Part shown: positions 10,724 to 16,700 of the stretch, piece by piece
Layout: each line of letters begins with the position of its first letter
How positions within the stretch are numbered: the first letter of the stretch is position 1
Source of the DNA: Xiphophorus maculatus
Taxonomy: Eukaryota; Chordata; Actinopteri; Cyprinodontiformes; Poeciliidae
Length of the DNA stretch: 64,000 nucleotides
NCBI RefSeq assembly: GCF_002775205.1
Contig: NC_036460.1
Span: 906,001-970,000 of the forward strand
Reading direction: 5' to 3'
Position numbers and translations under genes: made by a program
Notes under the pieces: generated by a model
Told to the model about the DNA's origin: nothing
Seen by the model: only the letters and a program-made list of their open reading frames with translations
Database searches by the model: none

Positions 10724-13700
10724 GCACTCAGAGTGTTTGGTCTCTTCCTGGTTGAACTGGTTCTGTGTTTCTGTTTCCAGTTCGGGTCAGCATGAAGGGA
10801 CCTCATGGCTTCATCTCAGGAACTGAGTGGCCTCTGATGGTGGTGAGACCCCAACACACACACACACACACACATGCACCCACACACACACACACACACA
10901 CACACCTACACACACACACACACACGCACACACACACACACACAACACACGTTTGCGTGGGTATCTTTGTAGGAGCCTTAGATTGACTTCCATTCATTTC
11001 TATAGCCTAACCCTAACCAAAACTCAATTCACACCTTAGTCCTGTTTTAGGGTCAAGGGTCAACCCCGACCCACAAACAGCGTTTCTCCTTGTGTGGACC
11101 ACAGACCACGGAGCTGATCCGCTGGACCCATCTTCAGGGTCTCTAGGTCTCCATAGCAACCATGAGAGACTACAGTTTGGCCTACACAAACATGAACATG
11201 TAGACATTGTTAAGCTCCGGTGGGCCTTTAACTAGACCAGATATGGACCCTGCAGACTGTGGAGCCATTTTCTTGGCTTTCCTTCAAATTAAAGGCAGAT
11301 TCTTTCTGACCTCGTGTCAGATGCTGCTTCAGTAAAAACTCAAATAAAAGTTTTGTAGACACGGTCATGGGCGCTAACTCCTCTTGCTAACTGATCCTGC
11401 TAACTGATTATTCTAACTCCTCCTGCTAACTCCACTGGCTAACTCCTCCTGCTAACTGATTATGCTAACTCCTCCTGCTAACTCCAGTGGCTAACTAGAT
11501 TGGCTAACTAATCCTGCTAACTCCACTGGCTAACTCCACCTGCTAACTGATTAGGCTAACTCGTCCTGCTAACTCCACTGGCTAACTAGACTGGCTAACT
11601 CCTTCGGCTATCTCCACTGGCTTACTCCTCCTTCCAACTCCACTGGCTAACTCCACCTGCTAACTGATTAGGCTAACTCGTCCTGCTAACTCCACTGGCT
11701 AACTAGACTGGCTAACTCCTTCGGCTATCTCCACTGGCTTACTCCTCCTTCCAACTCCACTGGCTAACTCCTCCTGCTAACGCCACTGGCTAACTCCTCC
11801 TACTAACTTCACTGGCTCACTTCTCCTGCTAACTCCCCGTGCTAACTCCACTGGCTAACTCCAATGTCCTGCTAACTTGTCCGTGTCTCTGCAGTTCTAC
11901 ATGGTGATGTGCATCGGGTATGTGCTGCTGGCTGTGATGTGGCTGGTTTTGTCCGCCTGCTACTGGAGAAGCCTGCTGCGGATCCAGTTCTGGATTGGTG
12001 GCGTCATCTTCCTGGGCATGCTGGAGAAAGCCGTGTACTATGCCGAGTTCCAGAGCATCAGCTATGAGGGCGTATCAGGTAGCCTGTTAGCCGGGTAGCC
12101 TGTTAGCCAGGTATCATGTCAGCCTGTTAGCCATTTATCATGTCAGGCTGTTAGCCATTTATCATGTCAGGCTGTTAGCCATTTATCATGTCAGGCTGTT
12201 AGCCATTTATCATGTCAGGCTGTTAGCCAGGTATCATGTCAGCCTGTTAGCCAGGTATCATGTCAGCCTGTTAGCCATTTATCATGTCAGCCTGTTAGCC
12301 ATTTATCATGTCAGGCTGTTAGCCATTTATCATGTCAGCCTGTTAGCCATTTATCATGTCAGGCTGTTAGCCATTTATCATGTCAGCCTGTTAGCCATTT
12401 ATCATGTCAGGCTGTTAGCCATTTATCATGTCAGCCTGTTAGCCATTTATCATGTCAGCCTGTTAGCCAGGTATCATGTCAGCCTGTTAGCCAGGTATCA
12501 TGTCAGCCTGTTAGCCAGGTATCATGTCAGCCTGTTAGCCAGGTATCATGTCAGCCTGTTAGCCATTTATCATGTCAGCCTGTTAGCCATTTATCATGTC
12601 AGCCTGTTAGCCATTTATCATGTCAGGCTGTTAGCCATTTATCATGTCAGCCTGTTAGCCAGGTATCATGTCAACCTGTTAGCCAGGTATCATGTCAGCC
12701 TGTTAGCCAGGTATCATGTCACCCTGTTAGCCAGGTATCATGTCAGCCTGTTAGCCAGGTATCATGTCACCCTGTTAGCCAGCGTCTCCTCCTCCTGGTT
12801 CGACCTCCTGAGCTGTCATGTGTCCTCCTGCAGTCCAGGGGGCGGTGGTGTTTGCCGAGGTGCTTTCGGCTGTGAAGCGGACGCTGGCCAGAGTTCTGGT
12901 GATCATCGCCAGTCTGGGATATGGAATCGTCAAGTGAGTCCAGCAACTGCTGCCATCAGAGAACAGTAATCCCAGTAGTATAACAGAACTGGGCCTGGAG
13001 AGAACGGGTCGCCCAGAACCACGAATCACTTCCTAGCCTGTTCAAGGTTCTGACAGCATTTGTATTTATTAACATGTCTCAAAGATTAAAATGATCGAGA
13101 ACACTGCTGACAGATCCATCGGGTTCCCTCCTGAACTTCCTCTCATCCTGCATTGAGGATCTTTGCAGCAAGATGCCTCACTCCGGCAACTCACAGACAT
13201 CTGTTTTAATGCGTTTTGTTACATAAGAAAAATAAACTCAAATAAACTTTTTTGCATCCAGAGTTGATGTTACAGATGCTTTAAGTTTCATGATTCCCAG
13301 ATTTGTAGGTTTTCTTTGTTTCTAAGCTATTATGACCTTTAACCCCTGTGACCTTCTACCCCCCCTGTTTCTGTCAGGCCAAGGCTGGGTGCCCTGCTGC
13401 ACAGAGTGGTCGGCGTCGGCTTGCTCTACCTGCTCTTCTCCATCATCGAGGGAATCCTGCGGGTCCACACGGTGAGTTCTGACCTGCTGGCCCGGTTCTG
13501 TTGGACCTGTTCCAGCCCAGTTGTGGATCAGTTCCGGCCCGGTCTAACCCGTGTGTTCTGCAGGATCGGGGAAATGACGACCGGAGCCTGATAGTGTGTG
13601 ACGTGGTTCTGGCTCTGACCGACTCCTGCGTTGTCTGGTGGATATCCTTACAGCATCAGAACCTTCAGTCATGATTGAATATCGTTTCGCTGTTTGATTC

Positions 13701-16700
13701 GTTATGTCTGCCTGGTTGAACTCCAGGTCCAGATTTCTAATCTGAAAACAGAGAAGAAGAAAAAGCCTCTGAGAACCAATCAGCTGCTGATTTAATTTCT
13801 TTCTATTTATTCTTTCTCATCCTCCTTTTTTCTTCCTTCTTTATTCTTGCATTCATCTCCTCCTCCTCCCTTTGTCTTCAGGCTGAAGATGATGTTCTTC
13901 TGGCTGCTATTCCTCTGGCTGTGCTCGATTCTGCCCTCTGCTGGTGGATATCCACTGCTGAACCTTTCCTTTTTAGCTGTAGAGAATCAGACTGTTGCTG
14001 CCTCTTATGTGTTAGCGATCCATGTTAGCGTCTTCCATGTTTGGGTCCCCCATGTTAATGTCCCTCATGTTAGCGTTCTCCATGTTAGCGTCCTCCATGT
14101 TAGAGTTCTCCATGTTAGCGTCTCCCATGTTAATGTTCCTCATGTTAACGCCATCCATGTTTGGGTCCCCCATATTAGCGTCCCTCATGTTAATGTCCCT
14201 CATGTTAGCGTCCTCCATGTTAATGTCCCTCATGTTAGCGTTCTCCATGTTAGAGTTCTCCATGTTAATGTCCTCCATGTTAGCGTCCTCCATGTTAATG
14301 TCCCCCATATTAACGTCCTCCATGTTAATGTCCTCCATGTTAGCGTCTTCCATGTTAATGTCCTCCATGTTAGCATCCTCTATGTTAGCGTCTCCCATGT
14401 TAGCGTCCTCCATGTTAATGTCCCCCATGTTAGCGTCCTCCATGTTAATGTCCCCCATGTTAGCGTCCTCCATGTTAATGTCCCCCATGTTAGCGTTTTC
14501 CATGTTAATGTCCTCCATGTTAATGTCCTCTATGTTAGCGTCCTCCATGTTAATGTCCCCCATGTTAGCGTTTTCCATGTTAATGTCCTCCATGTTAACG
14601 TCCTCCATGTTAATGTCCTCCATGTTAGCATCCTCTATATTAGCGTCTCCCATGTTAGCGTCCTCCATGTTAATGTCCCCCATGTTAGCGTCTTCCATGT
14701 TAATGTCCTCCATGTTAGCATCCTCTATGTTAGCATCTCCCATGTTAGCGTCTTCCATGTTAATGTCCCCCATATTAACGTCATCCATGTTAATGTCCCT
14801 CATGTTAGCGTTCTCCATGTTAGCGTCCTCCATGTTAGCGTCTCCCATGTTAATGTTCCTCATGTTAACGCCATCCATGTTTGGGTCCCCCATGTTAGCG
14901 TCCTCCATGTTAGAGTTCTCCATGTTAGCGTCCTCCATGTTAATGTCCCCCATATTAACGTCCTCCATGTTAATGTTCTCCATGTTAGCGTCTTCCATGT
15001 TAATGTCCCCCATGTTAGCGTCTTCCATGTTAATGTCCTCCATGTTAGCGACTCCCATGTTAGCGTCCTCCATGTTAATGTCCCCCATGTTAGCGTTCTC
15101 CATGTTAGCGCCTCCATGTTAGAGTTCTCCATGTTAGCGTCCTCTATGTTAGCGTCTCCCATGTTAGCGTCCTCCATGTTAATGTCCCCCATATTAACGT
15201 CCTCCATGTTAATGTCCTCCATATTAATGTCCTCCATGTTAGCATCCTGCATGTTAATGTCCCCCATATTAACGTCCTCCATGTTAATGTCCCCCATATT
15301 AATGTCCTCCATGTTAGCATCCTGCATGTTAATGTCCCCCATGTTAGCGTCTTCCATGTTAATGTCCTCCATGTTAGCGTCTTCCATGTTAATGTCCTCC
15401 ATGTTAGCGTCCTCTATGTTAGCGTCTCCCATGTTAGCGTCTCCCATGTTAACGTCCTCCATGTTAATGTCTCCCATATTAAGGTCCTCCATATTAGCGT
15501 CCCCCATGTTTGGGTCCCCCATATTAGCGTCCCCCATGTTTGGGTCCCCCATATTAGCGTCCTCCATGTTACCGTCCCCCATATTAGCGTCCTCCATGTT
15601 AGCGTCCTCCATTTTAACGTCCCCCATATTAGCGTCCTCTATGTTAGCGTCTTCCTTTATGGCGCTCTGTGTTATGTCTACTTGGAGCATTTGGTCCGGG
15701 TTAGCTGTAGCGTCTCGGTTTCTCGATGAAGCTTCCTTGACCTTTGGTCCCACATCTTCGTGAGCCTGGCTCAGACGATGAAGCTGCTGAAGCTGAGAAG
15801 GAACGTTGTGAAGCTCTCTCTCTTCAGACACTTCAGCAACACCCTCATCTTTGCTGTCATCGGTGCGTGAATGCCTCCTGTTCCTCCTCTTCCTCTTCTT
15901 GCCTTTCTAAATCTCTGTGTTGTTTTCAGCTTCGGTGATCTTCATCATCTGGACGGCGAAGAACTTCACCATGTCCAGGTGTCTCCCTGTAAGTAAGGAG
16001 ACGCCCTTATGTCTCTCTGTCGTCACGTCTCCAACGTTTTCATTCTTGCTGGTTTAGGACTGGAGGGAAGTCTGGATCCAAGACGCTTTCTGGCGCTTCC
16101 TGTTTTCCGTCATCCTATTGGTCATCATGTTCCTATGGCGACCGTCGGCAAATAATCAGATGTAAGAGGCGTTCTGGGGTTGGGTCATGTTTTATTCTGT
16201 GGTTTTAAGTGGACTGTGTTTGTGCGTGTCAGGTACGCCTTCAGCCCCCTGGTGGACGGGGACAGTGAGGATGAGGAGGAGAAGGAGCCCATGATGAACG
16301 AGGCTTTTGGTCAGAAACCTTCATCGTTTGTCTTCCTCAGCCTTTCCTCCCAGCCTCCAGTGAAGCTGCAGTTTGTTATGAAGTGAAGTTTTAGCTACCC
16401 CTTTAACTGCTTCCTGTTTGATTCAGGGGGTCACTGGTTTTAATATTTAATAAGAAATCAGTGCAAATCCAATAATAATCCTTATTAAATAGTTAATATG
16501 TTTATAAAAGCAGCAGATGGCTGAAGTCTTGAGGCTTAGTGTGTTGTTTCTTATATGTTGAAGCTTGTTGACCTTCTAATTGAGTCGTGGTTCTCTGCAG
16601 ACTCAAAGTGGGCGTGTCTAAAGCGTGAGCTCTGATTGGCTGGCTCCGGCAGCAGGAATCTGACAGGAATTGTTCATCAGTGGCGACCGCTTTAAAAAGA

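Follow-up and report, generated by a model that had tools for sequence, protein, structure and literature searches.

The window, a stretch of 64,000 nucleotides (nt) of the Xiphophorus maculatus genome (assembly GCF_002775205.1, contig NC_036460.1, positions 906,001 to 970,000), carries on its forward (+) strand a TMEM87A-type gene in which two exons, A and B, stand in tandem between one shared upstream and one shared downstream exon. All coordinates given here are those of the window and lie on this strand. The upstream coding exon (13379..13471), which aligns to human TMEM87A, is followed from 13472 by a donor of the major (U2) type, GTGAGT. Exon A (13564..13641; 78 nt) and exon B (13882..13947; 66 nt) are both open, in phase 0 and preceded by an AG acceptor, and the acceptor of exon B has a strong pyrimidine tract (0.94 over 17 nt). 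Both exons end in TGGTGG and run directly into an ATATCC donor of the minor (U12) type, namely ATATCCTTAC at 13642..13651 for exon A and ATATCCACTG at 13948..13957 for exon B. The two U12-type introns have one AC acceptor in common (15752..15753; intron end TTCCTTGACCTTTGGTCCCAC), and the 109-nt downstream coding exon (15754..15862) follows it. A gap of 240 nt (13642-13881) separates A from B. A sequence-only reading of the window had proposed the coordinates, lengths, phase and open frames of the two exons, their common TGGTGG ending before ATATCC, the GT donor that they share at 13472 and the AC acceptor that ends at 15753, and all of these were recovered unchanged when the sequence was checked.

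Of the 1806 nt in the U12-type intron that runs from exon B to the downstream exon, about nine-tenths are occupied by a minisatellite (14019-15655) with a period of 30 nt, 54.6 copies and 83% matches. Upstream introns of this gene contain two further minisatellites, at 12097-12781 (24-nt unit, 28.5 copies) and 11373-11862 (52-nt unit, 9.4 copies). No Rfam family was found over 8000-20000 at gathering thresholds.

A TMEM87 protein search of the genome gave nine matches, which fall on the locus of the window gene (C18) and on two loci elsewhere in the same genome (C22 and C19); one weak additional match on C18 (E 7.6) was left out of the analysis. When their exons were joined, all three loci matched human TMEM87A, the sole TMEM87 protein found in the PDB. 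For the window gene the match covers residues 290-492 (E 3.8e-87), and a match to residues 469-555 comes from its C-terminal exons. Identity across the first 160 residues failed to separate the genes (C18-human 116, C19-human 116, C22-human 111, C18-C22 114, C18-C19 106, C19-C22 102), with seven site splits placing C19 and human against C18 and C22, and two and one for the other groupings. With the upstream exon and two blocks of the tail included, the comparison covers 248 residues in three blocks; identities to human TMEM87A then number 188 for C19, 184 for C18 and 169 for C22, and C18 and C22 also share 169. The four-way site splits, taken without human TMEM87B or an outgroup, still favour C19 and human against C18 and C22 at ten sites, with five and two for the others. 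The window gene is therefore nearer to human TMEM87A than C22 is, and the tail KEPM..E.F is common to C18, C19 and human TMEM87A and is not found in C22. Because of this tail and the identity counts over 248 residues, the window gene is classed by sequence as TMEM87A-type. The other TMEM87 paralogue is most likely C22, which we take to be tmem87b, partly on the basis of the human protein.

Splice-site classes and joint use of the exons

The assignment of the two exons to U12-type AT-AC introns is based on their donors, their common acceptor and its branch site. Between 12301 and 16300 on the + strand, the donors of exons A and B are the only places with the pattern [AG]TATC[CT]. The motif alone, however, proves nothing, since the octamer ATATCCTT is common in the 704 Mb genome, with 10221 copies on the forward strand and 10273 on the reverse, where the control, the octamer read backwards, has 9891 and 9633; the evidence lies in the context of the motif. 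The U12 branch site resembles TTCCTTRAC and lies about 10-13 nt from the acceptor. When the 45 nt preceding each of eight acceptors of the three loci (three AC and five AG) were scanned for this consensus, the AC acceptors gave 9/9 in C18, 8/9 in C22 and 7/9 in C19, with the branch A 13, 13 and 11 nt, respectively, from the intron end. In the window gene the matching site is TTCCTTGAC (15733..15741). The best match at the five AG acceptors is at most 6/9; that of exon B in C22 falls inside the U12 distance range, at 18 nt, and lacks the branch A. Among 20000 random 45-mers drawn from the window and the C22 and C19 loci, true sites included, a site of at least 8/9 at a distance of 8-21 nt was found in 55 draws and one of at least 7/9 in 515. 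An ATATCC donor, an AC acceptor and a branch site of 9/9 at 13 nt are thus the marks of a U12-type AT-AC intron in the window gene. In both the window gene and C22 the whole is laid out as in JNK, with two U2 3' sites and two U12 5' sites flanked by a U2 donor and a U12 acceptor.

JNK-like loci of the same genome were used as a positive control. The query, a JNK peptide, gave 18 genome matches, from which the eight on the four best loci (L031-L034; 59-80% identity in the main exon) were used and the ten weaker ones left out. Each of the four loci has two exons of 72 nt that run from an AG acceptor to a GTATCCTT donor (8/8), and the downstream introns end in AG (4/4). The interlocked U2/U12 layout is therefore present at these loci as in TMEM87, where the introns are instead AT-AC (5/5 donors and 3/3 downstream acceptors). 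The mismatch in terminal dinucleotides is stricter in TMEM87 than at the JNK-like loci. The likeness to JNK that had been put forward from the window alone is borne out by the site classes, the branch points and the four loci.

From these site classes a route of splicing may be outlined. The major spliceosome would splice the upstream exon onto either A or B at its AG acceptor, and the minor spliceosome would splice whichever exon was chosen, from its ATATCC donor, to the AC acceptor that both have in common. An A-B junction would need a U12 AT donor to pair with a U2 AG acceptor, and a transcript lacking both exons would need a U2 GT donor to pair with a U12 AC acceptor; both pairings are mismatched. 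The outcome would be one of two versions of the transmembrane helix TM5, and the choice may be a competition between the U2 acceptor of exon B and the U12 donor of exon A. A direct U2-U2 junction between 13471 and the exon that begins at 15930 would shift the frame and meets a stop after two codons.

It may be asked whether exclusion could be imposed by other means. Steric hindrance and reading frame are both described as general exclusion mechanisms in PMC5740500, and either might act here in place of spliceosome class. Such an origin is, however, extremely improbable. The limit given in that paper is 50 bp from donor to branch point, which the gaps of 240 nt in the window gene and 252 nt in C22 far exceed, and the frame is kept by all four combinations, that is, A alone, B alone, A and B together, and neither. 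Steric and frame exclusion were rejected on these two grounds. Because the frame would permit both exons to be included or both to be skipped, splice-site class is, by the established rules of splicing, likely to be the lock on exclusion.

Matching exons at the other TMEM87 loci

C22 carries two exons of 72 nt, GRDNSAALMTAIVLAVFDSCAIWF and TKDSDLALLANIPLALLDSSLCWW, in the same order as in C18 and upstream of an AC acceptor; the counterpart of exon A ends at 3246 of the locus sequence L017. Both of their donors begin with ATATCCTT. C19 has a single exon with a U12-type donor, GFYGTVALVANLSLSLIDSCVMWW (L018, 5759-5830), and no second copy was found on either strand of the 8 kb examined there, the best other window scoring 24 against 45-62 for the exon itself.

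Exon peptides were compared over their last 18 residues by BLOSUM62, with A18, B18, A22 and B22 denoting the exons of the two loci. Same-type comparisons give 80 for B18-B22 and 47 for A18-A22, comparisons of A with B inside one gene give 43 (A18-B18, six identical residues) and 38 (A22-B22), and cross-type comparisons between genes give 46 (A18-B22) and 44 (A22-B18). When eight pairs were shuffled 20000 times each, no shuffle reached the observed score in seven of them, and four did so for A18-B18. The adjacent exons of the window gene are homologous and occupy one and the same position in the protein, a feature of mutually exclusive exons (A18-B18 43; 4/20000 shuffles), and the related tandem exons bear out the proposal that they encode two versions of one transmembrane helix.

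Within the 7 kb C22 locus, the top match of exon A is C22 exon A (47), followed by C22 exon B (46), and the top match of exon B is C22 exon B (80), followed by C22 exon A (44). Among 2493 open forward windows, none outside the pair scores above 18 for A or 19 for B, and among 2527 on the reverse strand none scores above 14 and 18, respectively. Chance is a poor explanation of the pair, because C22 holds a matching pair in the same order and nothing comparable elsewhere in the locus; a chance origin was ruled out accordingly. The exon pair is real and is retained in a second gene, and it is very probably functional.

The two types differ in the clarity of their grouping. The B exons fall clearly together and with human TMEM87A, whereas the grouping of A with A is weaker and comes mainly from shared residues. 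Both A exons have Cys373, Val366 in place of Pro and a residue other than Cys at 375 (human numbering), and the exon order is alike in both genes; moreover, the B18-B22 score of 80 is far above that of A against B in either gene (43 and 38). These features suggest a single duplication before the C18 and C22 genes split, which is likely and not proven. Two separate duplications, one in each gene, are a less probable alternative that still deserves some weight: the A score between genes (47) is hardly above the comparisons of A with B (46, 44 and 43), and at codon positions 1 and 2, A22 shares 23/36 with B18 and 22/36 with A18.

The single C19 exon scores 59 with A18, 45 with A22, 48 with B18 and 62 with B22. 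Typing it as A or B by score failed, and three diagnostic residues alone point to A: it has no Pro366, has Cys373 and has no Cys375. This third TMEM87 gene may have lost the other exon copy.

Exon A might also be regarded as a decaying or seldom-used relic, with B as the sole productive exon. In identities over the 18 residues, B agrees with C22 B at 14/18 and with human TMEM87A at 13/18, while A agrees with C22 A at only 7/18 and with human TMEM87A at 5/18. Set against this, exon A has an open frame, its U12 donor (ATATCCTT) is the better of the two, its AG acceptor is plausible, and its counterpart in C22 stands in the same place and scores 47, the best window outside the pair reaching only 18; the C19 exon is also A-like at its three sites, its overall score not favouring A. 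That A is a relic is accordingly improbable.

On the combined evidence, there is strong reason to regard A and B as a duplicated exon pair in a tmem87a-type gene that is used one exon at a time through incompatibility of U2 and U12 sites, and we infer from the sequence that both exons are used in this species. Four points tell against this. First, U12 introns of the AT-AG kind exist in general, so that joining A to B should be taken as disfavoured, not impossible. Second, the donor of exon B departs from ATATCCTT at +7/+8, so that B could be rarely used. Third, the A-type peptides of C18 and C22 resemble each other less than the B-type peptides do, as the identities above indicate. Fourth, the AC acceptor of C19 (7/9) is the weakest of the three, and its strength is equalled in 2.6% of the random 45-mers. 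With regard to the second point, exon B, despite its weaker donor, is of the type found in the human structure. The sequence-only reading had called the A donor near-perfect and the B donor weaker, which holds for the window gene, where A matches ATATCCTT and B has ATATCCACTG; the weakness of B is specific to that gene, since both C22 donors begin with ATATCCTT.

Possible consequence for helix TM5

In the human TMEM87A of the PDB, ASLAFIPLAFLDTALCWW corresponds to residues 360-377, so that the exon end lies just before Ile378. According to the GolpHCat paper (PMC11239671), a bound phosphatidylethanolamine has its phosphate at Asp371 of TM5 and its acyl chain at Cys375, Trp376 and Phe379. In an alignment made without gaps from the exon end, Asp371 and Trp376 are retained in both A exons, which carry Val366 for Pro, Cys373, and either Val or Ile at 375; Pro366 and Cys375 are present in both B exons. 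The swapped residues adjoin the phosphatidylethanolamine site described for human TMEM87A. Both types are hydrophobic, with mean Kyte-Doolittle values over the 18 residues of 1.86 and 2.02 for A, 1.88 and 1.29 for B, and 1.48 for human. The exon swap would probably alter the lipid-facing chemistry of TM5, and may change lipid binding.

A broader picture can be offered only tentatively, and we hold it to be somewhat less probable than its negation. The pair may be older than the TMEM87 gene split and may form a strict AT-AC switch that exchanges the lipid-facing side of TM5, yielding two forms that differ in lipid gating or conductance and are set by the balance of U2 and U12 splicing, with C19 frozen in one form. 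The B type is the form in all four PDB sequences found. If the pair works in this gene as in the mouse, studies of TMEM87A channel function or lipid binding with a B-type construct cover one of two helix versions. Three human isoforms are mentioned in PMC11239671 and in the Elkin1 paper (PMC7173973), and the passages of these papers that mention them describe no TM5 exon swap beside them.

Comparison with known systems

A known example of the arrangement is MAPK8/9, whose exons 6a and 6b (Chang et al. 2007, as related in PMC8329584) have two interlocked U2 3' and two U12 5' splice sites, from which one exon is chosen. A wider class is recorded in PMC5740500, which gives five human clusters with U2/U12 incompatibility, or 0.79% of all clusters; the presumed exclusion in the window gene is of this kind. 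TMEM87 is not named in the main text of that paper, the five clusters being given in its appendix. TMEM87A is tabulated in PMC2941758, with the entries CNS and N.

The closest relative is mouse Tmem87b, of which Olthof 2019 (PMC6717393) reports that exons 11 and 11a are mutually exclusive around a minor intron, on the basis of RNA sequencing (RNA-seq) and reverse-transcription PCR (RT-PCR). No reads joining 11 and 11a are reported there, 11a is predominant in cortex, Tmem87a is placed among genes skipping the upstream exon, and Mapk9 serves as a comparison. The window gene is like mouse Tmem87b in belonging to the same family and in having a second exon inside the minor intron, with a U12-type donor on 11a in the mouse. 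The two mouse exons are both 72 bp, as are both C22 exons, whereas those of the window gene are 78 and 66 nt. In contrast to the RNA-seq and RT-PCR evidence in the mouse, the window gene is known from genome sequence alone, and its B donor is weaker. If the pair works as in the mouse, the minor intron would be partly an isoform selector, which is one possible reason for its retention.

The 2021 review (PMC8329584) states the interlocked JNK-like arrangement for both TMEM87a and TMEM87b, and describes the choice between A- and B-type exons in TMEM87a/b and JNK as a competition of U2 acceptor and U12 donor. The novelty that had been suggested for the arrangement is thus reduced: it is in print for mammalian TMEM87A/B (PMC6717393, PMC8329584), while a report of the exon pair in fish was not found in the titles, opening lines of abstracts and passages of open-licence PMC papers that were examined. 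The exon arrangement is already published for mammals, and the window gene is a relative of the published case. What is added to it is the instance in this genome, a second paralogue with the pair, and the placing of the swap on the lipid-contacting helix TM5.

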